NCBI GenBank assembly: GCA_017508965.1
Contig: JAFWQT010000176.1
Span: 1 to 56,921, forward strand
Reading direction: 5' to 3'
DNA from: Prevotella sp.
GTDB lineage: Bacteria; Bacteroidota; Bacteroidia; Bacteroidales; Bacteroidaceae
Length of the DNA stretch: 56,921 bases
Each line of letters opens with the position of its first letter. Within the stretch, counting starts at the first letter, position 1. Below are positions 3,031-36,563 of the stretch, one piece after another. The notes under the pieces were generated by a model, which saw only the letters and a program-made list of their open reading frames with translations, had not been told where the DNA came from and made no database searches. Made by a program: the position numbers and the translations under genes.

Positions 3031-3060
3031 ATCAGAAACATCAAAAACAAGGATAAGATT

Positions 3061-4482: not shown

Positions 4483-4502
4483 TTAAAAAGCAGATTACGA
4501 TT

Positions 4503-5408
4503 ATGAAAATATTCAAATTAGCATTAGGCATGGCAGCCGCTCTGATGCTGGCTTCCTGCAATATCAACGAATTGCCTGAGTACGACGACTCCAATGCTTT
4601 CGTTGCCTTCACCAGCTCTTCCGTGAACGTAGGCGAGGAAGAAGGCAGCACAGAGGTTGAAGTACTTCTGACCTCTATCGGTGGCATCGAGACGACCGTA
4701 AACTTCGAAGTGGTTCCTGCCGAGACAGCGGGAGCCGTGGAAGGTACGCACTACACGATCGAAGGCAGCAAAACCCTGAAATTCACGAAGGATGCTCCCA
4801 CACAGAGAATCAAGCTGAACATCGTCGACAACGAGACGTTCGACGGCAACGTGAAGTTCAACATCAATCTGACCGATGCCAACGGCGTACAGCTGGGCGC
4901 AAGCAAGACGTGCACCGTGACCATCCAGGACAACGAGCACCCGCTGCTCTTCATCCTTGGCACTTACGTTTCCAAGGCTCCTCTGGTTTCAGCATTCTCC
5001 AGCCGTGGTCAGTGGGATGCCCACGAGATAACCATCGAGCGCGATCCCGATGACATCAGCAAGGTTTGGATAAGCAACCTCGAGCCCTACTTCGCTACAG
5101 CCGGCTTAAAGGCTCCAACCTACAATTATTTCTATGGTATCGTCAACGAAGAAAAGACGGAAATAAGAATACCTTGCTCGCAAGAGACCGGCTACGTAGA
5201 CTCTGACGGCATCGGCATTTCACTCTATGGCTTCGAAGATCCTACAGCCGACAGTGAACCCATGCAGTCTGGCAATATCATCATGAAGATCCAAGACGAC
5301 GGTAAGACGCTCCTCATAGAGAATGCCTTTGGTGTTTGTATGACAAGCGACCTGCAAGGTGGATGGTATAACATCGTCCTCGGCCCGGCTACGTTTACTA
5401 AAAAGTAA
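4503..5408 (+). CDS. surface lipoprotein with Calx-beta-like domain
   Basis: 301 aa. Lipobox LASC gives a mature N-terminal cysteine (about residue 19). Residues about 30-145 read as a Calx-beta-like repeat (VAFTSSSVNVGEEEGSTEVEV, AVEGTHYTI, IKLNIVDNETFDGNVKFNI, CTVTIQDNE); this fold is common in extracellular adhesion and binding proteins. The C-terminal half resembles the unassigned domains of lipoproteins that follow SusCD pairs. It lies 20 nt after susD and 22 nt before the next lipoprotein, so it probably serves as an accessory surface binding protein of this importer. No catalytic motif is visible. Confidence 0.8.
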   Translation: MKIFKLALGMAAALMLASCNINELPEYDDSNAFVAFTSSSVNVGEEEGSTEVEVLLTSIGGIETTVNFEVVPAETAGAVEGTHYTIEGSKTLKFTKDAPTQRIKLNIVDNETFDGNVKFNINLTDANGVQLGASKTCTVTIQDNEHPLLFILGTYVSKAPLVSAFSSRGQWDAHEITIERDPDDISKVWISNLEPYFATAGLKAPTYNYFYGIVNEEKTEIRIPCSQETGYVDSDGIGISLYGFEDPTADSEPMQSGNIIMKIQDDGKTLLIENAFGVCMTSDLQGGWYNIVLGPATFTKK

Positions 5409-5430
5409 TAACGATTAATCAATTACAGAC

Positions 5431-7056: not shown

Positions 7057-7073
7057 TTTTCATTAAAAGAATC

Positions 7074-7123
7074 ATCCCCTTTTTGCCCCACTGTGTCCTC
7101 AGTGAGGCGGAAAGGGGATTTTC
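7074..7123 (+). terminator. long intercistronic hairpin (terminator or attenuator)
   Basis: ATCCCCTTT pairs with AAAGGGGAT (7111-7119) and the inner arm continues with GCC...CACTG against CAGTG...GGC, giving about 20 mostly paired positions with a 6-nt loop, followed by TTTTC. It sits between the second lipoprotein and the C10 peptidase, so it could terminate most transcripts of the binding-protein genes or protect their 3' end. It also overlaps the most upstream in-frame ATG for the peptidase, which argues for the later start at 7141. Confidence 0.6.
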
Positions 7124-7140
7124 ATTCTAAACGAAACGAT

Positions 7141-21811: not shown

Positions 21812-23067
21812 CTCTCAAACTCTGCCTTCAGCACGTTGAGCACCTGGTCGACAGTCTCTTCCTCGAGGTCGGCTTTCTCCACCAGCATCTCACGCGGAGC
21901 GTTAAGCACCTGCTTGGCGGTGTCGAGACCGATAGCCTTGATAGAGTCGATGACCCACTGGTCGATCTCGTCGGAGAACTCGTCCAGATAGATATCCTCG
22001 TCGGCATCTTCTTCGCTCACCTCACGGAACACGTCGATAGTATAGCCGGTCAGCATACTGGCCAGCTTGATGTTCAGACCGCCACGGCCGATGGCCAACG
22101 AAACCTCCTCGGGCTGCAGATATACCTCGGCCTTGTGGTTTTCCTCGTCGATCGAGATGCTCGACACCTTGGCCGGGCTCAGGGCGCGCTGCACAAACAG
22201 CTTCGTGTTGGCCGTATAGTTGATCACGTCGATGTTCTCGTTGTTCAGCTCGCGCACAATGCCATGCACACGGCTACCCTTCACACCAACGCAGGCTCCC
22301 ACGGGGTCGATGCGCTCGTCGTAGCTCTCAACGGCAATCTTGGCACGTTCGCCCGGCATGCGGGCAATGCGCTTGATAGTGATCAGACCGTCGGCAATCT
22401 CGGGAACCTCGGCCTCGAGCAGGCGCTCAAGGAACACCGGACTGGTACGACTGAGGATAATCTTCGGGTTGTTGTTCTCGTTGTCAACGCGATGGATGAC
22501 GGCACGTACCGTCTCGCCCTTGTGGTACTGGTCGTTAGGAATCTGCTCACTCTTGGGCAGGATGAGTTCGTTGTTCTCATCGTCAACCAGCAGCACCTCG
22601 CGCTTCCACACCTGATAGACCTCGCCCGAGACAACCTGTCCCACGCGGTCCTTGTACTTGTTGTAGAGCGAGTCGTGAACCAGTTCCAGCACTTTCGAAG
22701 CCAGTGTCTGACGCAGGTTCAAGATAGCACGGCGACCGAACTTGGCAAAGTCCACGCGCTCCGACACTTCCTCGCCCACCTCGTAGTCGTCCTCAATCTT
22801 CTGGGCGTCCGACAGCGAAATCTGCTTGTTCTCGTCCTCCACTTCACCGTCGGCCACGACCATACGGTTGCGATAAATCTCAAAATCGCCCTTGTCAGGG
22901 TTCACAATGACGTCGAAGTTCTCGTCCGAACCGAAAATCTTGGCGATAACGTTGCGGAAGCTCTCCTCCAGAACGCTCACCAGCGTGGTGCGGTCGATGT
23001 TCTTGTCCTGTGTAAAATCCTTGAAGGCGTCGAGCATGCTAATGCTCTCTTCTTTCTTAATTGCCAT
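21808..23067 (-). CDS. nusA: transcription termination/antitermination factor NusA
   Basis: 419 aa. The NusA N-terminal domain (LVSVLEESFRNVIAKIFG) is followed by an S1 domain (RVGQVVSGEVYQVWKREVLL) and two KH domains (KIAVESYDERIDPVGACVG with GSRVHGIVRELNNENIDVI, then LAIGRGGLNIKLASMLTGY). A short acidic C-terminal tail follows; the E. coli-type acidic repeats are absent, as usual outside Proteobacteria. NusA controls pausing and termination of RNA polymerase. It starts 61 nt after rimP. Confidence 0.97.
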   Translation of the reverse strand: MAIKKEESISMLDAFKDFTQDKNIDRTTLVSVLEESFRNVIAKIFGSDENFDVIVNPDKGDFEIYRNRMVVADGEVEDENKQISLSDAQKIEDDYEVGEEVSERVDFAKFGRRAILNLRQTLASKVLELVHDSLYNKYKDRVGQVVSGEVYQVWKREVLLVDDENNELILPKSEQIPNDQYHKGETVRAVIHRVDNENNNPKIILSRTSPVFLERLLEAEVPEIADGLITIKRIARMPGERAKIAVESYDERIDPVGACVGVKGSRVHGIVRELNNENIDVINYTANTKLFVQRALSPAKVSSISIDEENHKAEVYLQPEEVSLAIGRGGLNIKLASMLTGYTIDVFREVSEEDADEDIYLDEFSDEIDQWVIDSIKAIGLDTAKQVLNAPREMLVEKADLEEETVDQVLNVLKAEFES

Positions 23068-23102
23068 TTCTTATATTTTTTATTATTATTGTTTCTATCA
23101 GA

Positions 23103-23128
23103 AGTCCCCCTCGGGGGATAGAGGGGGG
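23103..23128. repeat. C/G-run palindrome between rimP and nusA
   Basis: AGTCCCCCTCGGGGGATAGA followed by GGGGGG; CCCCCTCGGGGG forms a stem. It directly abuts the rimP stop and belongs to the repeat family of 9411-9508. Confidence 0.6.
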
Positions 23129-23596
23129 TTACTTAAACGAAATCAAATACTTGCAGTATTTCACCGTATCCATCGAGAACTGGTAGTCCTTGTCCTGAAG
23201 CTGGGGACGCTTCTTACCTTCCTCCTTCACTTTCTCCTGGACGGTCACCGTGAAGTCGCGTCCGTCGACGCCCTTCAGCACGCCCTTGTATTTCTTTCCG
23301 TCAGCATCCAGCACTTCCACTTCCTTTCCCACGAAGTTCACATACTGCTGGGCAACTTTAAACGGCTGTCCAAGACCTGCCGAGCCAACTTCCAGTTCAA
23401 AGTCTTCAGCCTCGCGGTCGAGATGATCCTCAATGAATCGGCTCAGCTCCACACAGTCTTCAATCCACACCCCGTCGGCATGGTCAATCTCCACTACAAT
23501 CTTGTTGTCACGGCTGATTTCAATGTCCACGAGGAAATAGTCCTTACCCTCGAGCCACTGGTCAACCAAATTCTTTACAATGTTTTTATCTGTCAT
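23129..23596 (-). CDS. rimP: ribosome maturation factor RimP
   Basis: 155 aa. Matches the two-domain RimP layout: N-terminal domain with YFLVDIEISRDNKIVVEIDH and DCVELSRFIEDHLDREAEDF, the conserved ELEVGSAGLGQPFKVAQQY (usually EVSSPGLDRPL), then a C-terminal SH3-like domain (GKEVEVLDADGKKYKGVLKG). It helps 30S maturation. It is the first gene of the rimP-nusA-infB-sufBCDS operon, 62 nt downstream of the promoter's -7 box. Confidence 0.95.
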   Translation of the reverse strand: MTDKNIVKNLVDQWLEGKDYFLVDIEISRDNKIVVEIDHADGVWIEDCVELSRFIEDHLDREAEDFELEVGSAGLGQPFKVAQQYVNFVGKEVEVLDADGKKYKGVLKGVDGRDFTVTVQEKVKEEGKKRPQLQDKDYQFSMDTVKYCKYLISFK

Positions 23597-23618
23597 ATAA
23601 CTTTAGAATAAATAAAAT

Positions 23619-23640
23619 GTGGAACTCTTGCGAGTCCCAC
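23619..23640 (-). promoter_or_regulatory. leader hairpin of the rimP operon
   Basis: GTGGGACTC-GCAA-GAGTTCCAC on the minus strand forms a 9-bp stem with a tetraloop (one G-U pair), directly after the predicted transcription start and before rimP, followed by ATTTTATTT. It may stabilise the 5' end or attenuate. Confidence 0.5.
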
Positions 23641-23657
23641 ATTCCACTGAACGGGTG

Positions 23658-23689
23658 CAAAGATACTAACTTTTCCCGAACCTTGCAAA
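23658..23689 (-). promoter_or_regulatory. promoter of the rimP-nusA-infB-suf operon
   Basis: On the minus strand, TTTG (23689-23686), 20 nt, TATCTTTG (23665-23658): a full match to the Bacteroidota -33/-7 promoter with the same 20-nt spacer seen at the tRNA and LiaF-like promoters. Confidence 0.75.
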
Positions 23690-23756
23690 CATTTCACACA
23701 TTTTCTTTAAATAAATATGCTTTTACGTTAAAATGAAAAAGCAAAAGAGCTAAAAC

Positions 23757-23840
23757 CTTTCCCTTTAGCCTTATCTTCAACCGCGAAGAACGAACTTTTT
23801 TGTAAGATTTTTGTAGATTTTCGTCCATAGATGAATAGGG
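23757..23840 (+). repeat. ~80-bp direct repeat, left copy (flanks cassette A)
   Basis: Starts CTTTCCCTTTAGCCTTATC; by hand alignment 69 of 80 positions (from 23761) match the copy at 28953-29032 without gaps, and the first 27 nt (from 23757) are identical. It lies upstream of the large gene at 24383. Confidence 0.8.
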
Positions 23841-24059
23841 TGCCGAGTAGTTATTTCCCGTTTAAATATAGTTGTCATTTTTAATTGCTCGTAGCGAAAG
23901 GTTAATTTTTGACAAAATTACAAAGTAATCAGAAGAACGATTCATTTCTTCTTTTTGTCATTTTTACAATCGCAACTTACAATCTGATTGATATTTAACG
24001 AAAAATGTTAAAATCTTAAATTTTTCTGATATTTTTACTAATTATTTGATTTATTTTAT

Positions 24060-24382
24060 TACATTTGCATCGGAATATGTACAGATGCTTCAGAGGATGA
24101 TAAAGGCACATAAAAAATCGGACACTATTTGGATTCAATAACTATGTAGCAACTATATAAAAAGATGAAGACAAAACGACAAAACGAAAAAGGGCATTGT
24201 GCGACTGAGAGACGCACGATGGCCAATCATGTTGAGCCGTAGCATTACCCTACGACTGGAACCCACTGGCGAATTCCGTTCCCACAGGAACTCTTCCCAG
24301 TTCTCTTATATAGTAAGGTATATGAAAAATACGAAGAAAAAACTTAGTTTGAAGAAAATAAAAACCAAAATTTAATGCGAAT
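24060..24382 (+). promoter_or_regulatory. promoter and long structured leader of cassette A
   Basis: TACATTTG at 24060-24067 is a -7 box match with a poor -33. About 310 nt of leader follow. It contains a 25-codon ORF (24165-24242, MKTKRQNEKGHCATERRTMA then NHVEP) whose stop codon lies in the stem CGTAG-CATTACC-CTACG (24238-24254), and a second hairpin GTTCC-CACA-GGAAC (24278-24291) framed by CTGG/CCCAG. This looks like a structured 5' leader. I see nothing definite in 23841-24059, which is very A/T-rich. Confidence 0.4.
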
Positions 24383-27300
24383 ATGAAAAAGAGATTAATT
24401 AACAAAACACTTAGCAGGTGGATTCTGTTGTTACTAATGCTAGTAACGGGAACCACACAAGGTGTTGCTCAGAATGTGACAATCAGTCCAACTACGGGTA
24501 ATCTGGTTCAAGTTCTGTCAACTCCAGGTGAAACAGGTTATGCGGCAGGATTTGCAGCTTTCTGGCGCCATGAACAGCTGCCTTTGACAATGACCGTGGC
24601 CGATGTGGATGATGTAACAGAATCAGGAGAGTGTCTCACCCCGACCTGTGCCATTTCAGATTATGATCGTAATGGCGGGTACAGGAGACTGATTCTTGCG
24701 GGCGGTACGATGCCTACTTACATGATTGTGTCATTGCCCAAAGGTTATCGCATCACTGGTTACAAGATTGTATTAAGAAACGATTTGGGTACCAGTAACG
24801 TTAGTAACTCAACAACCCGGTTTACTCTTACGGATAACACGTTGTATTTCTACGAAGTGGATCCCTGGACCACCGGTTCCACGAATTACAGAGATGCTTC
24901 GCTCTCTACATATAAAGAAGTCGCTAAAGCCTCAGATGGAACAACTGCTATCAATGTTGGTACAGCCTCTAATCCAGGCGGAAGTGATTATGGCAAAGAG
25001 TATACTATAGAGCGTTATAGTAAAGCAGAAGATGGCAGTGATATGAGCAACCAACTCTATTTCAGATTGACCAAGATCTTTAATCAAAAATATTATGGTA
25101 TCAGTATCAAGTCGTTTGAAATCTTCTTCACAGCGAAAGGAACCTTTACGGCTGAAGGTGCGCCTTCATCAATAAATCCTACCGCTGTGAGTGTGCTTCC
25201 TGTGGCATTCAACACGAATAAGACTGATATCGGTGGACTTAAGCCAACAACAAAAGACGGTCAGACTTTCTATACTTACAACTATAGAAAAGTAACCGAT
25301 CTTCTTGCCTTCAACTATCTGTATCAGGAAGACGCCCTCAAAGAAGATGCTGAAGGGAAAAAGTATCCTGAAGAAGGTGTCGCTGGGATTACTAAGAAAA
25401 TCCATCAGGTTGAAAATGGAGGTAAGAAGTATTTCGGTTTGAAGAATGGAGTTTATTATATGGAAACACCTGTTACGGTGACCAATTCTTCTGGTGAAGA
25501 ATCTCCTATCGGCTACCGTATTGTAGGAGCTAAGATAAACTATGCTTATGGGGCAGATCAGCAAGGTACAGCTGCAAAAACAGTTGATTGTATTAAATTT
25601 GTCGACCCATCTACTCATAAGGAATATTATTTGAATGCCGACGGAACCTACCAAACAACGCCAGTAGAGTGGACGGCTGATGCCAATGGCATTCACAGTG
25701 GAGACGCTTATCTTGCCTATATGGCTACAGGATATGGAACGAGTACGATTTACAGGCTCACCGTAGGAACAAGTTCTTCTTCAAATAAGTTAACTGTGAA
25801 TGATATCCATGATGGGTATATTCGCCCGAATATTACAATTGGTCAAGATGGTGCTGCTAGCGGTGAACATTATCTCATTGGTTTAGCCTCATCTACGGCA
25901 AGACCGCCTTTTGAGCAATTAAATAATAATCCACGTGACGATCATTATAATGCAAACCTCAGGGCTACATGGACTACTGCAACAATACCTGCTACTTCTC
26001 CCTTTGTGGCTGAGGAGTATCAAATAAAAGTTTATGATTATAAAAAAGGTAAGACTGTTCAAAAAACCATTGACGTAACAAGTGGAACAACAGACTCGTA
26101 TGATCTTGGCATACTGAACAATGATGCGATCAAGTTCGAAATTGCAGGTGTGGATGGATCCAATGGATTGGCTCTCGTGACTGTTGACCTGACCTTGCAG
26201 GCTCTCAATCCTTATATCAATAGTATGGAAATCGTCTGTCATGATGGCGATGATAATGATCCAACAAAGCCCAGGACGATGGAAATGAGTCAGACATTCA
26301 CCAACGATGACTTCTCAGTGAGTGGTGGTGTCTTCGAATTCTATGTGCCCGAAAGGTATGCCAATGAAAACCTGACTTTTACCTTCTCTAACCTCTACAG
26401 TACAGACGGTGATGAAACTTATCCCAATGGAAAAGGTGCGGCCCGCTACTCTTTTGTAACATCAGATTATTTTGAGAATTTTGATGGCTATGGTGGTGAC
26501 GATGGACTATACTCTACTAGCTATGACCCGGAATCAACGGCAGCTCCGTTTAGATATGAGGACAAGGCGTTTACAGCCGTGGCAGGTAACAACTTCTTCA
26601 AGTTCAACAATGCCGATGAACTTAATAGCAGTAGCACAGGTACTCATCCTGATCACTTGATAGAGTATCCGTTTACGGTGTCGAAATATTTGGCTTCAAC
26701 GGGCAGTCCCACAGGCGAAGGAACATTCACCCAGAATGAATTTGTAGATGTGATTCTTAATGCGAGTGGAATTGCAAATACTGCAACCGTTAAGAATTCA
26801 GGTATCTTCTATGTGTTCACAGCTGATGAAACACGCTATAACATTGCAAAGACGACAGCCTGGGAGCACCGCTACTACGCATTCTACCGTATGGATATCA
26901 ACTTGAAGGCCATGACTTATCATTCAAAACTTGAATGGGAGAAAATCTATGACGCAACCTGCTATAACAAGGATGGAGCCGATGCAGAAGACAGCATGTG
27001 GGGACTCACACTCAAAACTGTTGCAAGTGCTAATTCTACTGAAGAGGTAGAAGGTTTCCTCACTACCGTTGAAATTGACAATGCCATAACTGCAGCACTT
27101 GAAGCAGAAGGTGACAATCATCCGACATCTACCGACCAGATTCTCTACGTCGATGCCAGCAATCTGAAGTCAGTTGTCGCTATTCAAGGCGCTGGTGGCC
27201 TTCCAATGGAGACTCTTAAGGCCAGGTTCGCTCCGAACGTCTTGTTCTATCTGCCAGAGAACTCAACTTCCACGCTTGATAACTTTGCATATAAACAAGA

Positions 27301-28267
27301 TGACAAGTTCTATGCTGCAGGTAACATCGTGATAACCGACCGCAAGCCCTTCTATGCACCGTATGATATTCAGACGACGTCACCGAACTATGCTACTTAC
27401 ACGCGCGAAATCTCATGGCCGAGGAATGGTAAGACCGCATTGGCAACTGTGATACTGCCCTTCCAACTGACTGTTCGAGAGGGTGTACATACTGAACCGA
27501 CAGGTTCTATGTACCCCGGAAGTGAATTCACGGTGAGCCTGATGAATTCAAGTAATTGCCTCAGCATTACGGAGGAGGAACTCAATTCAGCTAATGACTA
27601 CTACAAGGCTGACGCTTACTTCTCTCCAATCTCTGGAACATCAACAGTAGCGAATAAACCTTATATGATTAATGTGACGTCTGCTCCTGATAATGAGAAT
27701 GTTCCATTTGCTGCCACTCAGATTGGTGCATTGGTGAAAGCTACGTCAAGCATGGGTACCAATTATGAATTCGAAGGAGAGGACGCTTTGGGATCGATTA
27801 ATGGTGGTACTTCCTCTATTTCGTTCCATAACCAAGGTTCGTTCTCTGGTAAGAAGCTAACAGCCAGCAAAGGATACTTCTACTTCTCTGGTGGCATGTA
27901 TCTGAACTCTAAGAACCTCAATATCAGTGCGCTCGGTGATGCACTCTATGTATATCCGTTCCGTGGTTATTATTCCTACGAAGGTGGTGGCACTGGTAAC
28001 GCCAAGATGATAACAGCCTTTAATGTTCTCTTCGGCGAGAACGAGGAAGCCACAGGCATTACTGAATTGGCAGGCGAGGCTGATCTGGTGGCTATTCCTG
28101 GACGCGGCACGATTACGTTCAAGGCTGCTGCTGACAACGATGTGCAGATAGTGAAAGCTAACGGCATGAAGGTTGGCAGAGTAGTGATAGGTGCAGGTGA
28201 GACACAGACGATACATGTTCCCGCTGGTCTCTACATCGTGAATGGTGCTAAGTTGATTGTTAAATAA
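24383..28267 (+). CDS. large exported surface protein A (paralogue of 29445-33218), T9SS-like tail
   Basis: 1294 aa. A signal peptide (RWILLLLMLVTGTTQGVAQ) precedes QNVTISPTTGNLV and the shared FAAFWRHEQLPLTMTVAD block. It is beta-rich, with repeated motifs shared with protein B: SLPKGYRITGYKIVL, YFGLKNGVYYMETPVT, NSMEIVCHD, FTADETRYNI. Residues about 400-530 differ most from B. The end (MKVGRVVIGAGETQTIHVPA then GLYIVNGAKLIVK) resembles a T9SS sorting tail, so cell-surface display or release is likely. No catalytic domain was recognised. It is followed 21 nt later by a 65-aa gene. The gene is visibly more A/T-rich than the suf or Sus genes. Function unknown. Confidence 0.85.
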   Translation: MKKRLINKTLSRWILLLLMLVTGTTQGVAQNVTISPTTGNLVQVLSTPGETGYAAGFAAFWRHEQLPLTMTVADVDDVTESGECLTPTCAISDYDRNGGYRRLILAGGTMPTYMIVSLPKGYRITGYKIVLRNDLGTSNVSNSTTRFTLTDNTLYFYEVDPWTTGSTNYRDASLSTYKEVAKASDGTTAINVGTASNPGGSDYGKEYTIERYSKAEDGSDMSNQLYFRLTKIFNQKYYGISIKSFEIFFTAKGTFTAEGAPSSINPTAVSVLPVAFNTNKTDIGGLKPTTKDGQTFYTYNYRKVTDLLAFNYLYQEDALKEDAEGKKYPEEGVAGITKKIHQVENGGKKYFGLKNGVYYMETPVTVTNSSGEESPIGYRIVGAKINYAYGADQQGTAAKTVDCIKFVDPSTHKEYYLNADGTYQTTPVEWTADANGIHSGDAYLAYMATGYGTSTIYRLTVGTSSSSNKLTVNDIHDGYIRPNITIGQDGAASGEHYLIGLASSTARPPFEQLNNNPRDDHYNANLRATWTTATIPATSPFVAEEYQIKVYDYKKGKTVQKTIDVTSGTTDSYDLGILNNDAIKFEIAGVDGSNGLALVTVDLTLQALNPYINSMEIVCHDGDDNDPTKPRTMEMSQTFTNDDFSVSGGVFEFYVPERYANENLTFTFSNLYSTDGDETYPNGKGAARYSFVTSDYFENFDGYGGDDGLYSTSYDPESTAAPFRYEDKAFTAVAGNNFFKFNNADELNSSSTGTHPDHLIEYPFTVSKYLASTGSPTGEGTFTQNEFVDVILNASGIANTATVKNSGIFYVFTADETRYNIAKTTAWEHRYYAFYRMDINLKAMTYHSKLEWEKIYDATCYNKDGADAEDSMWGLTLKTVASANSTEEVEGFLTTVEIDNAITAALEAEGDNHPTSTDQILYVDASNLKSVVAIQGAGGLPMETLKARFAPNVLFYLPENSTSTLDNFAYKQDDKFYAAGNIVITDRKPFYAPYDIQTTSPNYATYTREISWPRNGKTALATVILPFQLTVREGVHTEPTGSMYPGSEFTVSLMNSSNCLSITEEELNSANDYYKADAYFSPISGTSTVANKPYMINVTSAPDNENVPFAATQIGALVKATSSMGTNYEFEGEDALGSINGGTSSISFHNQGSFSGKKLTASKGYFYFSGGMYLNSKNLNISALGDALYVYPFRGYYSYEGGGTGNAKMITAFNVLFGENEEATGITELAGEADLVAIPGRGTITFKAAADNDVQIVKANGMKVGRVVIGAGETQTIHVPAGLYIVNGAKLIVK

Positions 28268-28288
28268 AAATTTGGGAGGACAATAATT

Positions 28289-28486
28289 ATGAAGAAAGTA
28301 TATATGAAGCCTCTCATTGAGAGCATGAATTCAGATTTGGAGTTGCAAATTCTTAAAGGAAGCTGGAATAACCACGCCGACTCCAAGGAACAGCAATCCT
28401 TTGAAGAAGAGGAAGAGGAAGAGAACCTTCCCGACTATGTCGGAGCGATTAAGTTCCGTAACGTTTGGGATGAAGACGATAATTAA
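28289..28486 (+). CDS. small acidic protein A (partner of large protein A)
   Basis: 65 aa. It starts MKKVYMKPLIE and ends FRNVWDEDDN, with a glutamate run in the middle (FEEEEEEEN). It aligns with the 67-aa protein at 29223-29426: M[KR]K.Y[MI]KP.I[ED], Q[IL]L.G[ST], KEQ..., acidic run, F..[VI]WD[ED]. There is no signal peptide or membrane segment. An unusually strong Shine-Dalgarno sequence, GGGAGGA (28274-28280), lies 8 nt before the ATG; the twin gene has the same element. Such Y-x-x-P small proteins are common as unannotated ORFs in Bacteroidota. The role is unknown; it might be a chaperone-like partner, a precursor peptide or a regulator for the large protein. Confidence 0.75.
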   Translation: MKKVYMKPLIESMNSDLELQILKGSWNNHADSKEQQSFEEEEEEENLPDYVGAIKFRNVWDEDDN

Positions 28487-28529
28487 ACCATAATTTCGAT
28501 TATAATATATCGTAATTAAATCCAAATTA

Positions 28530-28558
28530 GGACTGCCGGACATCCGGCAGTCCTTTTT
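28530..28558 (+). terminator. rho-independent terminator of cassette A
   Basis: GGACTGCCGGA-CA-TCCGGCAGTCC followed by TTTTT. An 11-bp perfect inverted repeat 43 nt after the small gene's stop. Confidence 0.85.
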
Positions 28559-28659
28559 AATTTGGCATTGATATCACTGTCCCCTCCCATCAAAAAGTAA
28601 CTATCTACGCCCCCTCCTGCGCACCAAAACCATTGCACTTCTTTCAATGTTTTCTTGAA

Positions 28660-28747
28660 GTACAAACTAATTTACTTTGTTCTTCATCTAATAGGTTTTT
28701 GAGGTTCATTTAATAGGTTTTTGAGGTACAAACTAATTTAGTTTGTT
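28660..28747. repeat. nested short repeats in the spacer between cassettes
   Basis: TAATAGGTTTTTGAGGT occurs at 28689-28705 and 28711-28727 (22-nt period). The outer copies GTACAAACTAATTTA.TTTGTT lie at 28660-28681 and 28726-28747, differing by one base; the second holds the perfect palindrome CAAACTAA-T-TTAGTTTG (28729-28745). The rest of the 28559-28948 spacer has C/T-rich tracts and TACTACC repeats but no gene that I can support. Confidence 0.7.
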
Positions 28748-28948
28748 GTATTACTGACGATATCTCCATACGCGAAAAAACGATTCGTACCACCTATACC
28801 TACTACCTTACGTGTAAGATGTTGTGTATCAAAGTGTTATTGGTAGTATGTAGATGTGTTTATCCTACTACCTTCCTACTACCGTACCCCCTATTTTGGA
28901 CCCGAAAGGCACAAAAAAGCCGTTTTTCTTTAAAAATATAAAACAATT

Positions 28949-29032
28949 CTTTCCCTTTAGCCTTATCTTCAACCGGGCAGAACAAACATTTTTGAGAGAT
29001 TTTTGTGGATTTTTGTCCATAGTTTAATAGGT
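28949..29032 (+). repeat. ~80-bp direct repeat, right copy (flanks cassette A)
   Basis: Copy of 23757-23840 in the same orientation. The pair brackets the whole of cassette A (promoter, large gene, small gene, terminator), about 5.2 kb apart. Confidence 0.8.
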
Positions 29033-29138
29033 ACTGTGTCCCCGTCTGGCAATAATTATGTGAATTACGTGAATTTCTTTCCTTTTTGGGGGGTTGTGGT
29101 CGCACCGCAGAAAAACCCCATACCCCCTCCCCCAAAAA

Positions 29139-29177
29139 CAGGCGGCGGAGCACTTCATCACTGAAGCACTCCGCCTG
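29139..29177 (-). terminator. terminator of cassette B
   Basis: Minus strand: AGGCGGAGTGCTTCA, loop GTGA, then TGAAGTGCTCCGCC with two mismatches, followed by GCCTGTTTTT. It lies 46 nt beyond the stop of the 67-aa gene. Confidence 0.7.
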
Positions 29178-29222
29178 ACAATAAAATGTTCTGAAAAAAC
29201 TATATTTTAGAAATCTGATATT

Positions 29223-29426
29223 TTATTCTTTCTCGTCATCCCATATGCTAGAGAATCCCAATTCTCCTAGAGGATCTTTCTCTTTTTCAGAGAAGAAATC
29301 ATCGTCTTCAACGGTAGTCTGCTCCTTGCCTTCAGCCCAGTTATTGCCGTTAGTACCAACAAGCAACGTCTGTTCACTTGAAATTGCGGCCATGTCAATG
29401 GCAGGCTTAATATATTCTTTTCTCAT
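29223..29426 (-). CDS. small acidic protein B (partner of large protein B)
   Basis: 67 aa, paralogue of the 65-aa protein at 28289. It starts MRKEYIKPAIDM, has QTLLVGTNGNNWAEGKEQ in the middle, an acidic stretch (VEDDDFFSEKEKD) and the end FSSIWDDEKE. TCCTCCC on the plus strand (29434-29440), i.e. GGGAGGA on the gene's strand, sits 7 nt before the ATG. It is 18 nt downstream of large gene B. No signal peptide, membrane segment, or peptide-maturation enzyme is seen nearby. The QxLLxG(S/T) segment recalls leader-peptide cleavage regions, but that is only a resemblance. Confidence 0.75.
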   Translation of the reverse strand: MRKEYIKPAIDMAAISSEQTLLVGTNGNNWAEGKEQTTVEDDDFFSEKEKDPLGELGFSSIWDDEKE

Positions 29427-29444
29427 AATTATGTCCTCCCATTT

Positions 29445-32400
29445 TTATTTAACAAGAACCTTAACTCCATTCACCACATACAAGCCCGCAGGGACATTGA
29501 CAGTCTTGCTCTCGCCTGCTTTCAGGACAACACGACCGATATGCATTCCGTTCAAGGCTGAGATAGCAACGGTATTATTCTCCTTTGAGGCTATCGTGAT
29601 TGTTCCGTTTCCTGTAGTTACAGCCAAATCAGGCTGGCTTTCAGTAGTTGATATGCCTGTAGCCTCCGAGAACGGATTTTCATTTGCACCGAATGCAATC
29701 TCTAAGAGGTTTGCTTTTGCAGGGCTTCCACTCGTATAAGAATAGTATGCGCGGAAAGGCTGAACATAAAGGTCAAGACCCTCCCTCAAGCTCTGGATAT
29801 TGTAAAGTGCGTTCTTGGCAAAATAGAAAATGTTCGGAGTAGTGGTCTGTTTCAGAGTCACGCCACTGAACGTTCCGGTGTTAGTAAAGTTGTAACTGTC
29901 TCCAGAAATAGAACCTGTACCAGTTTCTCCTGTCAAGGGTGTTGTCGGGGTCTTGGCAACAGTTGCACCATTAACGCGTGCTATAAACGGCACTTTCTCT
30001 TCACCCGAAGCACTGATTACTTTAATCATATATGGCTTATTGGCTTCGGTGGCACTTCCTGATACAGGCACGAAATGTGCACTACTCTTCATGTAATCAA
30101 CAGTACTATTCAGGTCTTCCGTGGTTGACAGACAGTTTGTCTCATCCAACTTATAAACTTCAAACGAACCAGAACCATCATTGTTCTCGTGCCGGCCGTC
30201 AGTAATATTGATATTGAACGGTAATACTATGGTTGCCGTTGAGATGTCCGTACCATAGGCAGGTGTGAGCGTACGCTTATATTCTGCGATATTGGCTCCT
30301 GATACTTGGATTGCATGTGGAGCGAAGAACGGGCGCTGGTCGGTCAAAACAATATCCTTACATGCATTGAAACCTCCACTCTCAGTCTTTGTTGCAAAGT
30401 TGTCCTTGGCAGGCGACAAATCCTTAGGCAGATATATCAAGGCATTGTTTGCCAACATTTTACGGATCTGATCTAACTCGTCAACATTTTCCTCTTCAGT
30501 AGTCTTTCTGTAAACGATACTCAACAGGTCGCTGCCATCAACATAGAGGACCTGGTCGGTGCCTTTCAGGCCAGAAGGACGACCATCAGTATAATCAACA
30601 TTCGTATTCTTCTCACCCACGAGTATCTGTTCTATCTGGTCGACTGTGAGATAACCCATGTGGTTCTCGTTACTTTCTGTAGTACCAAGTTTCAATCCAT
30701 AATAAGGTTTGCTGACAGCTTTCCCCTTTTCACTATAGCATGTTTCGTTGTAAACAGTTTCCCACTCATAGGTAGGCGAGTATTCTTTAACTACCAGTTG
30801 GATATCCATCACATAATAAGCATACATGCGGTGTTCGGTAGCAGTGGCGGGAGAAATGTTATAGCGGGTTTCGTCGGCCGTGAACAGATAACGGATACCA
30901 TGGTTGGTGGCTTCATTAGTACTTGCCGTCAGAGAGAATTCTGCAAAATTATCAAGTCCGTATTCGGACTTATTGAACGCATATTCTTCAAGATGCTTCG
31001 TATCTGTACTCGTGCTAGTGTTACCAAGCTCGTCGGCATTATTGAAGCGGAACTTTTTCGTACCACTTACAATTGCCTGTACTTTTGAAGGATCATTGTA
31101 GGTTGCATCGGGATTATACTTATCTGTATCATACAGGCTTGTGAACTGATGGTCATAAGGAGACTCCACAAACACATAGCGAGCGTTACCATCGGTCTGT
31201 CTGGGATCGCCAGTATAATAAGTGTTGTCACCATATTTACTATAAAGATCCTCAAAAGTAAATTTACAAGGCTTTTGAACGCCTTCATGAGAACTGAAAT
31301 CTCTTGGCACATAGAACGTAAACTTACCACCTCGAACAGCAAAGTCGTTGGCTGTAAAGGTCTGGGTCAATTGATCTTGATATTCATAATCATGGCAAAC
31401 GATGTCAATGCTCTGGATGTATGGGTCGAGCGCTTCCATCGTCACGTCGACTGTAATAAGAGCCTGATCATCACAGTCAGCAATCTCGAACTTCACAGCA
31501 TCGTTATTGAACTTATCACCTTCTTCAAGAAGGGTGGACAACTTGACGCTACCCGACTGACCATTTACTTTGACATCCTTTCCTTCCAGATGACGGCCTT
31601 TCATATCATAGAACTTAATAGTATATGGCTTTGGCGTAAAGGCAGGAACACTCACATCAACAGTAGTGGGATACTCCACGTCAATAGACTTCGAATCTGT
31701 GGTATAGGAAACTCTATAGACACCATTCCAATCACTTGTATTACTTGTTGTAAAGATGAAATACCTATAGGTGGTTGCATACCAACCAAAACCACTTGTA
31801 TATTCATAATAACGCAATGTTCGCCAAGAGTTATCAATATACGCCTGCAAATTATTGCTCTGATACGTTACCTTTACAGCATTACTTCTTTTTGTCGTCG
31901 TTGTCACTAAATAAATATTACCGGAACTGTAATAAGTTATATAAGCATTAGGATTGCTGACAAGACGGAGATATCCATCATCATCGATAAACCATTCAGC
32001 CTGACTGGATCTATCGGTTGTTAAACCACCAAAAGAATCCAGATAATAGTTGTTATTTCTAGAAACCTTATAGGTGTCTCTGGTCTCGGTCTTCATTTCC
32101 GTGGTTTCTTGCTGAACTGTCGTTGCCCCTGTATCATCTCCCCAAAAATAATTGATGGTAGCATCGGTAATACGATAGCCCACCAATAGTTGGCTGTTAT
32201 TCTGGTCGGTTGCCGTAATTGGGGTTTCGATATAATAGATGTCGTTTTTCAGCCCATAATAGAGATTTCCATTGTTATAAACGGTTCTGATGTTTTTGTT
32301 ATTATCTGGTGCGACATCAGCAGCGTTACCATCTGTATCAACAGCATCATCTTGAAACAGATAAAGATTTGCTGTCAGGTCTTTCACGTTACGGTAGTCG

Positions 32401-33218
32401 TAACTATAATAGGTAGCACCGTTCTTCGTGTTAGGCTTGATTTCACCGATATCCAACTTACTAGTAGCATAGGGAATCTCCACATAACTTACAGCACCGT
32501 CCTGAATAGCGACCGGCGAAACTGGTGCAACAGTCTCAGTGAAACCTCCTTCTGCAGAGAAATAAATCTCAAAACTCTTAATGGTCACTCCATAAAACGC
32601 ATCTGCATTACGCTGCATTCTGAAGTAAAGTTGGTGACCCATATCAGAATCAGTATTACTGGTTCTTTTAATTGTAAATTCCGTAGAGTTTGAATTCGTT
32701 GTTCCCATAGATGGTGATTGGGCCAAAGAAGAACTGGTATCAAAATCCGAATGAGTCTCGTACATAGTCTTGGTAACAGAACTGCTAATCTCCATATCAT
32801 TAACAGTTCTGCCATTCAGGTTATTAAGCATCACAATTTTATAACCCGTAAACCTATAGCCTTTGGGCAAAGACACTTCCATGTAAAGGTCAGCAGCCTC
32901 ACCACCCATCACAACCAAATTATCACCGTACACACTGATGTTACCGGCAGGATAATCCAACTCACCACCAGGAGTTAACGTTCCCTGGTCGGCAACAGTT
33001 AAAGTAAGCGGCAACTGCTCATGGCGCCACATGGCAGACCAACCATGCTGAAATCCCACCTCAGTAGTACCCCCACTATAGTTACCCGTTAGTGCGGCAA
33101 TCAGGTTGCCTGAAGTCGGGCTAATCGTCACATTCTGTGCCGCAACCCATTGTGCGTTTACCAATCCAAGAAGGGCAAACACAGCAATTTGTAGAAGTCT
33201 AATTCTTTTCATCTTCAT
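29445..33218 (-). CDS. large exported surface protein B (paralogue of 24383-28267), T9SS-like tail
   Basis: 1257 aa from the ATG at 33218 (MKMKRIRLLQIAVFALLGL, signal peptide ending WVAAQ). An upstream in-frame start at 33245 is a TTG and is less likely. It shares QNVTISPTSGNLI, MWRHEQLPLTLTVAD, SLPKGYRFTGYKIVM, YYGLKNDIYYIETPIT, SIDIVCHD and FTADETRYNI with protein A, and ends GAG-like: VVLKAGESKTVNVPAGLYVV then NGVKVLVK, a T9SS-like tail. A tyrosine/threonine-rich segment of about 130 residues (around 400-530; YKVSRNNNYYLDSFGGL, WYATTYRYFIFTTSN) is unlike the matching part of A and looks like a swapped module. Function unknown; probably displayed on the surface. Confidence 0.84.
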   Translation of the reverse strand: MKMKRIRLLQIAVFALLGLVNAQWVAAQNVTISPTSGNLIAALTGNYSGGTTEVGFQHGWSAMWRHEQLPLTLTVADQGTLTPGGELDYPAGNISVYGDNLVVMGGEAADLYMEVSLPKGYRFTGYKIVMLNNLNGRTVNDMEISSSVTKTMYETHSDFDTSSSLAQSPSMGTTNSNSTEFTIKRTSNTDSDMGHQLYFRMQRNADAFYGVTIKSFEIYFSAEGGFTETVAPVSPVAIQDGAVSYVEIPYATSKLDIGEIKPNTKNGATYYSYDYRNVKDLTANLYLFQDDAVDTDGNAADVAPDNNKNIRTVYNNGNLYYGLKNDIYYIETPITATDQNNSQLLVGYRITDATINYFWGDDTGATTVQQETTEMKTETRDTYKVSRNNNYYLDSFGGLTTDRSSQAEWFIDDDGYLRLVSNPNAYITYYSSGNIYLVTTTTKRSNAVKVTYQSNNLQAYIDNSWRTLRYYEYTSGFGWYATTYRYFIFTTSNTSDWNGVYRVSYTTDSKSIDVEYPTTVDVSVPAFTPKPYTIKFYDMKGRHLEGKDVKVNGQSGSVKLSTLLEEGDKFNNDAVKFEIADCDDQALITVDVTMEALDPYIQSIDIVCHDYEYQDQLTQTFTANDFAVRGGKFTFYVPRDFSSHEGVQKPCKFTFEDLYSKYGDNTYYTGDPRQTDGNARYVFVESPYDHQFTSLYDTDKYNPDATYNDPSKVQAIVSGTKKFRFNNADELGNTSTSTDTKHLEEYAFNKSEYGLDNFAEFSLTASTNEATNHGIRYLFTADETRYNISPATATEHRMYAYYVMDIQLVVKEYSPTYEWETVYNETCYSEKGKAVSKPYYGLKLGTTESNENHMGYLTVDQIEQILVGEKNTNVDYTDGRPSGLKGTDQVLYVDGSDLLSIVYRKTTEEENVDELDQIRKMLANNALIYLPKDLSPAKDNFATKTESGGFNACKDIVLTDQRPFFAPHAIQVSGANIAEYKRTLTPAYGTDISTATIVLPFNINITDGRHENNDGSGSFEVYKLDETNCLSTTEDLNSTVDYMKSSAHFVPVSGSATEANKPYMIKVISASGEEKVPFIARVNGATVAKTPTTPLTGETGTGSISGDSYNFTNTGTFSGVTLKQTTTPNIFYFAKNALYNIQSLREGLDLYVQPFRAYYSYTSGSPAKANLLEIAFGANENPFSEATGISTTESQPDLAVTTGNGTITIASKENNTVAISALNGMHIGRVVLKAGESKTVNVPAGLYVVNGVKVLVK

Positions 33219-33285
33219 AACTTTTTCAGATTTCTTTATATTCAAAATTTAAAATATTCGCTTAGCTCAATTGTAAATGCAGGCG

Positions 33286-33293
33286 CAAAGGTA
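33286..33293 (-). promoter_or_regulatory. -7 box of cassette B promoter
   Basis: Minus-strand TACCTTTG; about 70 nt before the ATG at 33218. The -33 position reads TTTC rather than TTTG, which would fit an activated promoter. Confidence 0.5.
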
Positions 33294-33460
33294 ACGATTT
33301 TGGCGAAATCACCGGAAATAAAATAGGCACTGCGTGTTAAAAAACGGGGAAACGAGGTGTGCAAAAACGAGAAATTTCTAAAAACTTTTCGGAATGCAAA
33401 TCGTACAATCAGGGCTGTCTTAAATCTAAAAAATCTAAAAAAATCCGTGATTTCATCGGA

Positions 33461-33486
33461 AGTCCAATTTATTTGGACTAATTTTG
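33461..33486 (+). promoter_or_regulatory. promoter with operator-like palindrome for the 7TM-AraC gene
   Basis: TAATTTTG (33479-33486) is the -7 box. The perfect inverted repeat AGTCCAA-TTTAT-TTGGACT (33461-33479) fills the region between -33 and -7. A dimeric regulator bound there would block RNA polymerase, suggesting autoregulation or repression. The placement also shows that translation must begin downstream of about 33490. Confidence 0.55.
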
Positions 33487-33539
33487 CACTTGAAATCACA
33501 CCAAAGCAAACAAACGTTAACAAAAACAAAAACAAAACT

Positions 33540-34685
33540 GTGAATATTCGCGAATTTCAATTGTGTGCATTTGTAATTATGGCACTACTTGCGTCTTCGT
33601 TGGTAATCACCACCGGGCGAACAGGCAGGGCCGGGCACATCTATAACAAAGCCCAACGGTTGCTCACGGCCGGAATTGTCTTGCTTGCCATACAGTTCGG
33701 CCTGCAATATTTCTGCAAATTCAGGTCCAACGGGCAAATAGCGGAGAGCATACTCTTCAATATCCTCTTCATTCAACCGGCAGCATGGTTTATCAACCTT
33801 TCGGTGCTCTGCATATTGCGTAACGGGCAAATCCACCCATGGGAAAAAGCCACAGGATTCATCTTTTATTTAATCTCGATAGCTGTTCTCTCCATAAGCT
33901 ATTTCACCGACGGGTCGCTGCTGGACCTTCACGTTGCGGAAATCGTAGCATCAGCCACCTACGGAATGATGCTCCTTTTCTTTAACTTGCAGGAACTTTA
34001 CTTAATCAGGCATATCAACAAAGCCATCGACAATTATTCTGACAGCAACAGCCTGGAACTGACCAGATGGATAAAAGTCTCCGTGTCGCTGCTCATTCTG
34101 TTGGTTCTCTTTTCTCCCATTACCATCTTCTTTGAGGATTCCATCATCCTGATGAGCAGCGCCATGCTGACAGTGATTTTCATCTACTATTACGTGTTCA
34201 ACTTCATCTGCTTCGGAATCAGCGAAAATGCCAACATGATATACCAGGCCAATGAAGAGGAAGAGAAAGAAGAAATCTCACTGCCCGCCCAACTGAAAGA
34301 CGAGAAGGGGAAAAACTACCAGCGCGTGGAAGAGGCGCTAAAGCAATGGATGGAAAGAAGAGGACATCTGAAGACGGGCATCACCATACAGGATGCGGTC
34401 GACGAAATGCAAATCCCGCGCTACCTGCTTACTCAATGGATCAAGAACACGGAATACGAAGTGTTCAGCCGGTGGATTGCCCATCTGCGCGTGGAAGAGG
34501 CCAAGCTGCTGATGGAGCAGCATCCCGAATATTCCAACGAAGCCGTGGCAGCGGAATGCGGGTTCAGCTCACGGTCTTATTTCCAAAAGGTGTTCAGAGA
34601 CCTGACGGGCATGACGCCTATGGAATATCAGTCTATAAACAAAGACTCCAATAAGAGAAAGCCCGATGAAATGGGCGGAAATTAA
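33540..34685 (+). CDS. seven-helix membrane protein with C-terminal AraC-type DNA-binding domain
   Basis: 381 aa from the GTG at 33540 (NIREFQLCAFVIMALLASSL). Longer starts up to 33357 would place the start upstream of the promoter and are rejected; ATG 33579 is an alternative. Seven hydrophobic segments are visible: LCAFVIMALLASSLVI, LLTAGIVLLAIQFGLQYF, ILFNILFIQPAAWFINLSVL, GFIFYLISIAVLSISYF, IVASATYGMMLLFFNL, VSVSLLILLVLFSPITIFF, SAMLTVIFIYYYVFNFICF. A charged linker then leads to an AraC-type HTH (HLKTGITIQDAVDEMQIPRY, NEAVAAECGFSSRSYFQKVF, RDLTGMTPMEYQS). It is probably a membrane-bound one-component regulator. It is divergent from cassette B, which is its likely target. Its ligand is unknown. 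Confidence 0.85.
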   Translation: MNIREFQLCAFVIMALLASSLVITTGRTGRAGHIYNKAQRLLTAGIVLLAIQFGLQYFCKFRSNGQIAESILFNILFIQPAAWFINLSVLCILRNGQIHPWEKATGFIFYLISIAVLSISYFTDGSLLDLHVAEIVASATYGMMLLFFNLQELYLIRHINKAIDNYSDSNSLELTRWIKVSVSLLILLVLFSPITIFFEDSIILMSSAMLTVIFIYYYVFNFICFGISENANMIYQANEEEEKEEISLPAQLKDEKGKNYQRVEEALKQWMERRGHLKTGITIQDAVDEMQIPRYLLTQWIKNTEYEVFSRWIAHLRVEEAKLLMEQHPEYSNEAVAAECGFSSRSYFQKVFRDLTGMTPMEYQSINKDSNKRKPDEMGGN

Positions 34686-34740
34686 AGATTAGCCTCTTCC
34701 CTGACAGCCCCCATATTCTGCCGAATCCATGCCCTATGTT

Positions 34741-34860
34741 CTGCCGAATTTGCAATTCGGCAGCATCGAGGTTGGCATTTGCAATGCCCATTTCTGCGGT
34801 TTTGGGTTTTCTCGGATTGCAAATCCTAATACTCATTGCGTTTGAATTACAAATTCAAAC
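34741..34860. repeat. row of four perfect mini-palindromes with tri-nucleotide loops
   Basis: CTGCCGAATT-TGC-AATTCGGCAG (34741-34763), GGCATT-TGC-AATGCC (34774-34788), GGATT-GCA-AATCC (34814-34826) and GTTTGAATT-ACA-AATTCAAAC (34840-34860). The cores are alike (ATT, three bases, AAT) while the outer stems differ but stay complementary. The first could end the AraC transcript, though no T-run follows. Confidence 0.75.
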
Positions 34861-34898
34861 GAACGGGTTGAAATTCAGACGAATAAGTAACCGTCTCT

Positions 34899-36563
34899 TT
34901 ACGGCTGCAAAACTTTCTGATAGCGTTCCTGGTCGAGCAGTATCTGCTCGGCGGCTTTCATCTGCTTGTCGTACTGCAAGGTGTTGGAAACGGCACCGCT
35001 CTGATAGTAGTAGGCGGCCACAATGTCGTTTTGCAGAATCTGCCTAATCACGTCCTTATGGCGGTCGAGGTCTTTGTCCAGATTGTGCCCCAGTTTCTTC
35101 TCCAAAGCCTCAAATTCGGGTTTGGCATCTTCGAGGTAGCCTTCAAATTCCATAATCTTCTTCAGCTGCTCCATCAGTTTCTGGCTCTCAGGGTCGTAGG
35201 TGAAACCGCTTTTCAGCACACGCTGCTTAAATTCTTCATAGTCGGCATCGGTAAGGGCAAACTCGTCGGCCGGGGCAATGGTAGGATGTGCTTCAATGTA
35301 GTCCATCACATACTCCAGCATCACCTCCGTGGAGTCACGGCCCGAAGCACTCAGATAGTAAGCAATGTTGGGCAGCGAGTCGGGTTTCACTTCCACGTCG
35401 GGCTTGATGCCGCCGCCGTCGCGCACCTCGCGGCCGTTGGCCGTATGGAACACCTTCGTGAGTGAATCAGGAATATGCTCGGTATAGCCGCCGTTGGCAT
35501 GTTTATAGTTGATGGCCTGAATGCAGCGGCCGCTGGGAATGTAGTATTTCGAGGTGGTCATCTTCATTTGCGCATTATACGGCAGTTCGAGCGGCGACTG
35601 CACAAGGCCCTTACCGTATGTACGTGTTCCTAAGACCACGGCACGGTCGAGGTCCTGAAGACTGCCCGCCGTGATTTCGCTGGCCGAAGCCGTTTCGCCG
35701 TTCACCATCACCACCACTGGCAGTAACGTGTCGATGGGTTCCACGGTCGTCTTATATTCGCTGTTGCCACGCTTCAGTTTGCCTATTGTCTTCACAATGG
35801 TCAGTCCGTTGGGAACAAACATGTTCACAATGTTGACAGCTTCAGAGAGCAGTCCGCCGCCATTGCTGCGAAGGTCGATGACAAGTCCCTTCATCCCCTT
35901 CTGCTTCAACTCGATGAATGCACGGCGGAAGTCTTTCGAACAGTCTTCGGTGAACGAATTCAGGTTGATATATCCAATGCCGTTTTTCCTTACGCCATAA
36001 TAAGAAATGCAGGGCAGCTGGATGGCCTGACGAGTGATACGCTTCTGCATAACCTTGCCCGTTGACGGACGCTGGATCTTCAGCAGGAACGTCGTGCCTG
36101 CCTCTCCGCGAAGGTGCGAGCTAACGTATGACACATCCTTGTCGGTCATCGTAGTGTCATCGATACTCAGGATGATGTCGCCCTTCTTCAGTCCGGCATT
36201 CGAGGCCGGAGTGTCCTGATAAGGTTCATCGATGACCACGCGCTTCAGTTTCGAATTATACCGCACCAGCGCACCGATGCCCGCATACTTTCCCGTGAGC
36301 GTCGACTTCAGGTCGCTCACCTTATCTGAAGGATAGTACATCGTGTAAGGATCCAGCGAGCGCAACATGGCATTGATGCCCGTGCCGATGGTCTGACCGG
36401 CATTCAGTGAATCCACATACCCCATGTCGAGGTTCCGGCAGATAGCGTTGAATATCTCCATGTTCTTCGACATTTCGAAATCATGGTCCTTTTCCGACTG
36501 AGCGGCAACCGGCAAGATTGCTGCCAACATCACTAATCCCAAAAGATATCTTTTCATTCTCAT
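34899..36563 (-). CDS. S41-family carboxyl-terminal processing peptidase
   Basis: 554 aa from the ATG at 36563; the longer reading starting at 36629 would begin upstream of its own promoter. Signal peptide ends PVAAQ. N-terminal helical part (FNAICRNLDMGYVDSL, MLRSLDPYTMYY), PDZ domain (GIGALVRYNSKLKRVVIDEP ... NAGLKKGDIILSIDD), then the protease core: GYINLNSFTEDCSKDFRRA, VIDLRSNGGGLLSEAVNI, the serine motif NGETASASEITAGSL and the lysine in RTYGKGLVQSPLELPY. CTPs trim or degrade envelope proteins in the periplasm. A C-terminal helical extension (~130 aa) is typical for Bacteroidota members. It is divergent from tRNA-Asn. Confidence 0.94.
   Translation of the reverse strand: MRMKRYLLGLVMLAAILPVAAQSEKDHDFEMSKNMEIFNAICRNLDMGYVDSLNAGQTIGTGINAMLRSLDPYTMYYPSDKVSDLKSTLTGKYAGIGALVRYNSKLKRVVIDEPYQDTPASNAGLKKGDIILSIDDTTMTDKDVSYVSSHLRGEAGTTFLLKIQRPSTGKVMQKRITRQAIQLPCISYYGVRKNGIGYINLNSFTEDCSKDFRRAFIELKQKGMKGLVIDLRSNGGGLLSEAVNIVNMFVPNGLTIVKTIGKLKRGNSEYKTTVEPIDTLLPVVVMVNGETASASEITAGSLQDLDRAVVLGTRTYGKGLVQSPLELPYNAQMKMTTSKYYIPSGRCIQAINYKHANGGYTEHIPDSLTKVFHTANGREVRDGGGIKPDVEVKPDSLPNIAYYLSASGRDSTEVMLEYVMDYIEAHPTIAPADEFALTDADYEEFKQRVLKSGFTYDPESQKLMEQLKKIMEFEGYLEDAKPEFEALEKKLGHNLDKDLDRHKDVIRQILQNDIVAAYYYQSGAVSNTLQYDKQMKAAEQILLDQERYQKVLQP

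Follow-up and report, generated by a model that had tools for sequence, protein, structure and literature searches.

Why would a bacterium encode a tiny acidic protein directly behind each of two large, probably surface-displayed proteins? The question is raised by a contig of 56,921 nucleotides (nt) from a Prevotella-like source genome (G000:C185; 2.8 Mb, 71% complete), and this whole stretch is called the window below. It carries two cassettes, each made of a gene for a large exported protein (A or B) and a gene for a small acidic protein (sA or sB), next to a gene, C, for a membrane-anchored AraC-type regulator (Table 1). The layout described in the original prediction was found in full, with a small gene about 20 nt behind each large gene (21 nt for sA, 18 nt for sB), a terminator-like hairpin behind each small gene, and C divergent from B. 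The two hairpins are those with the most pairs in the region 22000-36500. Our answer, possible but short of probable, is that the small protein might serve as an adaptor or chaperone that is matched to its cargo and produced in cis, from a gene right after that of the cargo.

The large-small pairing is not a chance arrangement, as its recurrence among homologues of A and B (the A/B family) confirmed. A single-sequence search found matches in at least 26 of 301 genomes of the taxonomic family (as we read the table, 14 of these match in just the tail), and a profile search found matches in at least 48 of 249 genomes of the genus, 14 in the C-terminal third only; at most two candidates were scored per genome, so that both counts are lower bounds. 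We read 55 sources for gene linkage, drawn from both searches and from a set of named loci. Of the 63 A/B-family genes with a visible 3′ end, 62 are followed, in the same orientation, by a small gene of the sA/sB class, although several of these rows share one genome or come from close relatives and are not independent. The gap, measured from the longest open reading frame (ORF), ranges from -11 to 97 nt with a median of 14, and is 0-25 nt in 55 of the 62. The sole gene lacking a small partner, L054, is complete and is the most remote member (24% identity); the survey table left it out, together with the fragment L055. Seven ORFs in the table have no small gene: three run off their contig (L074, L099, L109), and the rest (L006, L105 and two of L113) are 5′ or inner pieces of broken genes whose last piece has one. 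The claim that a small partner is linked to a large exported protein was thus borne out, homologues carrying the small gene rather than mostly lacking it. Three loci (L098, L101 and L112) hold three A/B cassettes each, with a small gene in 9 of 9 and one cassette inverted in L101.

A and B had been described as sharing blocks; their kinship proved wider, since they are full-length paralogues with 43% identity over A residues 14-1294 (E 3.5e-201). They are the only two members of the A/B family found in the source genome, and a quick tree placed them in different, strongly supported branches. Ten named loci contain relatives: seven match B over a long stretch, all in Prevotella or Prevotellaceae, and the other three, two of them in Bacteroides, match B residues 925-1264 only. 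Read by eye, both proteins start with a signal peptide followed by Q (..GVAQNVT in A, ..VAAQNVT in B), in line with the reported Q-rule, by which Q follows the Sec signal-peptide cut in cargo of the type IX secretion system (T9SS) (PMC10653852). Both end in a tail with the motif G-L-Y-[IV]-V-N-G-x-K, which aligns with the tails of other T9SS-tailed proteins, and the SprA translocon is encoded in 9 of 9 genomes tested, the source genome included. Judged from these sequence features, A and B are very probably exported by Sec and bound for the cell surface through the T9SS. Searches by sequence against solved structures gave nothing for A alone and two chance-level matches (E about 1) for the A/B alignment, and Pfam DUF6383 was found in A only below its cut-off.

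The small proteins sA and sB are homologous (35% identity, E 1.5e-5). Their class combines a shared N-terminal half (MKKxYxxP...LLxGS), a C-terminal half that is mostly acidic, and a WDDE end, with a median net charge of -8 (range, -16 to -2). By eye, neither sA nor sB has a signal peptide, and related small ORFs have no hydrophobic segment. Of 19 close pairs, 14 have a ratio of nonsynonymous to synonymous substitution rates (dN/dS) no higher than 0.33 and five exceed it, showing that the small protein is real and under purifying selection in most of them. None of 43 class members matched a Pfam family at E 0.01, the NCBIfam search gave one chance-like match for one member (E 0.004), and a sequence search against solved structures gave none.

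The class is not confined to the A/B family. When 19 genomes from the genus and family were searched with a profile of the 43 members, all 19 gave matches at E 0.05, between 1 and 46 in each, and 15 of these 19 genomes had given no A/B match in the single-sequence search. The small protein thus belongs to a wider, unannotated class that also occurs behind other cargo, a point that the original prediction missed. In genome G122, 13 of 13 profile matches lie within 130 nt behind a gene with a T9SS-like tail, and in the source genome 4 of 4 do. Five partners outside the A/B family were scanned, of which three are leucine-rich-repeat proteins of the BspA type, one is weakly immunoglobulin-like and one had no match. 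In a mixed sample of 30 loci, a small ORF was picked out in 27, and 18 of these stand behind a tailed gene (5 of the 18 from the A/B family). Genome G092 holds the 46 matches, and eight of its regions (L228-L235) were read: in five the small ORF lies about 50 nt before a lipoprotein-like gene with SCANEDV near its N terminus, and in the other three no small ORF was picked out by the pattern.

Evidence for a specific relation between small protein and cargo came from their co-divergence. Over 56 cargo-partner pairs, distances between small proteins correlated with those between whole cargos (rho 0.37), a value reached in 0 of 500 permutations. Segment by segment, the cargo stretch that matched best lies immediately ahead of the tail, at A residues 1144-1227 (rho 0.47, partial 0.34), and it ranked top in 200 of 200 subsamples; the matched pre-tail domain spans about residues 1122-1247. 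Among distant pairs the highest partial r was 0.31, with 0 of 300 permutations as high. When the small protein was divided, its C-terminal half carried the signal (0.32), whereas its N-terminal half gave a weak maximum in the same region (0.12). As the N-terminal half is physically nearer to the cargo gene, this speaks against plain linkage as the cause, with the caveat that the N-terminal half is more conserved and hence less informative.

A related trend was seen outside the A/B family. An LPF...PY pattern was rejected as a common trait of the partners, since among 29 tailed proteins it marked 6 of the 20 that have a small gene and 1 of the 9 that lack one. A PFRxYF pattern separated the groups at p 0.017 only (18/48 versus 3/27), and a profile was therefore trained on one genome and tested on others. 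It covers the region from 175 to 45 residues from the C terminus of 12 non-A/B partners from G122. In other genomes, tailed non-A/B proteins scored a median of 8.6 with a small gene (n = 20) and 0.5 without (n = 26; Mann-Whitney p 4e-6); many scores were low, and the separation is a tendency, not a rule. This test counted L091 as lacking a small gene because its small protein lacks the P, whereas the linkage survey counts it as present, and its A/B label took in at least L259 and L227, whose genomes gave no further A/B match.

These observations are consistent with the following scheme. sA and sB would be dedicated partners of A and B, their genes sharing one short transcript with the cargo gene that they directly follow. 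With its C-terminal half, the small protein may bind the pre-tail domain of its own cargo in cis at the ribosome exit, and binding would either keep the cargo competent for export or label it for a common factor that recognises the N-terminal half. At about half of the A/B loci, a membrane-linked helix-turn-helix (HTH) regulator, belonging to one of several unrelated types, would control the operon upon an outside signal. Such an unannotated partnership may help large proteins to reach the cell surface.

Known systems offer partial precedents. Dedicated chaperones of type III secretion are small and acidic, and their genes adjoin the cargo gene, sometimes together with an AraC regulator; these traits recur here, but we found no kinship by Pfam or solved structures, and the cargo would travel by Sec and the T9SS. 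The closest precedent in layout is found within the T9SS itself, where the gene of a cargo-specific SprF/PorP shuttle is reported to lie commonly directly downstream of type B cargo (PMC12618676, PMC9143113). In contrast to those outer-membrane proteins, which serve type B tails, sA and sB have 65-67 residues, no signal peptide and cargo with another kind of tail, and neither is an outer-membrane barrel. The Paraprevotella proteins 00502 and 00509 are likewise T9SS-dependent surface proteins from one locus of a Prevotella relative, as likened by description and not by sequence, but the available excerpt of that paper mentions no small partner (PMC9477747). Strict word searches of the open-access literature, which are weak evidence of absence, returned no description of the small class or of a cytosolic cargo-specific helper of T9SS cargo.

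Several observations weigh against the adaptor reading; its main weaknesses are that part of the class occurs next to lipoprotein-like genes and that a small gene is missing behind many T9SS-tailed genes. In the mixed sample, 9 of the 27 small ORFs are not behind a tailed gene and mostly precede lipoprotein-like genes (by eye). G122 has 57 tail matches against 13 small-profile matches, with two more found by pattern, and in 400 kb of G357 a small gene stands behind 0 of 4 tailed genes; on these counts the small gene was rejected as a general T9SS companion. Elsewhere in the order the class was found in 3 of 118 other genomes at E 1e-3, and this rarity outside the genus and family implies that the T9SS does not need the small protein. 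The tails of A and B had no NCBIfam match, and A/B tails reach no curated T9SS cut-off; the tail of one homologue stays just under it (TIGR04183, E 6e-4, 21.2 bits against a cut-off of 23). The sA lineage evolves fast, with dN/dS of 0.56-1.01 in all three pairs, and L092, L098 and L107 have glycines in place of the acidic stretch. Finally, the co-divergence is modest and could be raised by a shared recombination history of the 3′ end.

The strongest of the other explanations, itself unlikely, is that the small gene encodes the precursor of an exported peptide. An N-terminal leader would be cut after the xGS-like site, and the half ending in WDDE would be released to serve the large protein as ligand or co-subunit, perhaps with the membrane regulators as its sensors. 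This would fit the conserved N-terminal half with its E and hydrophobic residues before the G/S position, the variable stretch followed by a constant W-acidic end, and the membrane sensor-regulators encoded nearby. We searched for one export route, the C39 leader peptidase, and found it in G092 and G357 but not in the incomplete source genome, G122, G233 or G281. Double-glycine export by C39 was thus rejected as the general route, absent as the peptidase is from 4 of 6 genomes. G122 is without it in spite of its 13 small-profile matches, and 0 of these 13 lie away from a tailed gene.

The regulators near the cassettes bear on another, improbable explanation, in which unbound small protein acts on the neighbouring regulator and so couples expression to export, much as type III chaperones act on AraC activators. 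For the regulator count, the 1.5 kb upstream of the A/B gene was read in 47 rows, none of which has a further A/B gene in front; three broken genes supply four of these rows as pieces (L105 twice), and some rows are close relatives. Membrane-linked HTH regulators stand upstream of 22 of the 47 rows: 11 seven-transmembrane (7TM) AraC proteins, two of these being short AraC pieces beside a separate 7TM ORF, 6 transmembrane LuxR-type proteins and 5 large AraC proteins. The background was 0 of 282 genes in 400 kb of G357, a contrast somewhat favoured by search profiles built from A/B-adjacent regulators. The idea that a 7TM-AraC protein controls the cassettes accordingly held in part: membrane-linked regulators are enriched, but a membrane sensor-regulator in front is a trait of about half of the family, and the AraC type is not fixed, the 7TM-AraC kind accounting for 11 of 47 among unrelated types. 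The presence of AraC-type regulators beside many cassettes agrees with feedback by the small protein, but the regulator types are unrelated and none was found within 1.5 kb upstream of 25 of the 47 rows, while the small gene is constant.

Convergence of the two cassettes, proposed as a unit, did not hold up, since in the nearest relative, L043, both cassettes point in the same direction; we conclude that the convergent layout is incidental. The relative of C in L043 (48% identity) again borders an S41-peptidase-like gene (by eye), and the surface gene beside it belongs to another branch of the tree than B, so that the regulator seems to have stayed in place while the cargo beside it was exchanged. 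L091, the sister of B on the tree, also has a 7TM-AraC gene. Three tandem 7TM-AraC genes were seen beside one A/B cassette in L089 (1099-4446) and L090 (8990-12325). In L247 a 7TM-AraC-like gene (6995-8077) is divergent from a gene for a 1748-residue T9SS-tailed protein outside the A/B family, which has a small-class gene behind it (1520-1639, seen in L210); this locus (1520-8077) has the same three-part layout with other cargo.

A toxin-immunity pair, in which the large protein would carry an effector-like end and the small acidic protein would protect its maker, is even harder to credit. As in polymorphic-toxin systems, a small acidic gene lies directly behind a large exported protein and diverges together with its C-terminal part. 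However, the pre-tail region is one homologous domain in 20 aligned A/B members and not a swapped set, and the Pfam, PADLOC and PHROG searches returned no toxin family. Small proteins beside unrelated cargos also keep their N-terminal motif, which immunity sets are not known to do.

The small genes also carry a putative translation signal of a kind that ribosomes of this phylum generally ignore. Counting as strong a Shine-Dalgarno (SD) site with at least 5 nt of the SD core at proper spacing, we found one before 39 of the 62 A/B-linked small genes, both window copies included. The comparison sets gave 5 of 60 A/B genes, 25 of 226 background genes, 1 of 30 window ORFs of at least 120 residues, and 11 of 142 close operon pairs (Fisher p 3.5e-16 for the last against the small genes). 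L045 was scored as lacking a site since the rule took a later Met; an earlier in-frame Met has GGAGG. In the broader tail-linked set, 16 of 43 small genes have a site, 7 of 9 among A/B-linked ones and 9 of 34 among others by our own sorting. Reports on Bacteroidia describe ribosomes that keep their anti-SD sequestered and name rpsU and some rpsR genes as known carriers of an SD (PMC9976891, PMC8710568), and Prevotella bryantii is reported to be unable to use SD sites (PMC3155529). A likeness is seen in rpsU (bS21), which bears a strong, extended SD in this phylum that generally ignores SD sites (PMC9976891); unlike it, the genes described here do not encode a ribosomal protein, and their matches, of 5-8 nt, are shorter than the extended ones. 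SD-like sites before small genes would add natural, nonribosomal test cases for SD use in the phylum. That the small gene matters mainly as an mRNA element, shielding or pausing the cargo messenger through its strong SD and its translation, with the peptide secondary, is very hard to believe, for although such SD enrichment arises where ribosomes normally ignore SD sites (PMC9976891), the protein is under purifying selection with motifs conserved at both ends, and SD sites are less common outside the A/B family.

A broader extension of the adaptor reading is rather unlikely as a whole. In it, Prevotella would possess a large, undescribed class of cis-acting small adaptors, each produced beside its exported cargo. 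Their C-terminal half would be matched to that cargo (for A/B members, to its pre-tail domain), one common export factor would read their N-terminal half, and the A/B small genes would be translated through a real SD interaction. If so, SD-driven translation of the small gene would couple surface display to ribosome state (bS21 occupancy). A class present in every genus and family genome searched, with no Pfam model and behind tailed cargo in 17 of 17 cases in two genomes, would offer an entry point for studying what happens to such cargo before its export.

Table 1. Features of the two-cassette locus (positions in the window; aa, amino acids)
Feature	Positions	Strand	Basis
Dispersed 83-nt repeat	23757..23839; second copy 28949-29031	+	14 matches in source genome
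Structured leader upstream of A	24191..24312	+	fold z -2.8 for 24100-24340
A, 1294-aa exported protein; signal peptide ending VAQ, T9SS-like tail	24383..28267	+	sequence, alignment
Pre-tail domain of A (residues 1144-1227), whose divergence best tracks the small protein	27812..28063	+	co-divergence
T9SS-like tail of A, last 58 aa	28091..28264	+	aligns with other tails; tail of homologue TIGR04183 E 6e-4, under cut-off
GGAGG SD-like site before sA, directly 3′ of A stop codon	28275..28279	+	
sA, 65-aa acidic small protein, class MKKxYxxP...WDDE	28289..28486	+	
Terminator-like hairpin 3′ of sA, 11 pairs	28529..28554	+	
Terminator-like hairpin 3′ of sB, 14 pairs	29144..29175	-	
sB, 67-aa acidic small protein	29223..29426	-	
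GGAGG SD-like site before sB	29435..29439	-	
B, 1257-aa exported protein, ATG 33218; signal peptide ending AAQ	29445..33218	-	
T9SS-like tail of B	29448..29621	-	
Pre-tail domain of B	29649..29903	-	placed by hand from alignment with A
C, membrane-anchored AraC-type regulator (HTH_18), divergent from B; start unsure, 33357 to 33579	33357..34685	+	

The starts of two genes deserve comment. The longest ORF of B has 1266 codons and begins at TTG 33245. C matches HTH_18 (Pfam, E 5.3e-14) and has six hydrophobic segments by a crude hydropathy count; the sole in-frame ATG found in 33357-33700 is at 33579, and the L043 relative aligns from residue 66 of the GTG-started frame.

Mobile elements were considered as carriers of the cassettes. 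The 83-nt repeat, with which the segment of the original prediction begins, was rejected as a cassette boundary because it is dispersed, and a plasmid or phage origin of A and B was rejected after one search each, A having no plasmid match and B no phage match. No known RNA was found by Rfam at E 1 in 23500-34900, the leader region included. The leader upstream of A contains conserved hairpins, which among the compared loci are common only to the window copies and the A homologue of L010/L119; it was not seen before the 90%-identical A of L043. By eye, it overlaps a possible ORF of 25 codons.

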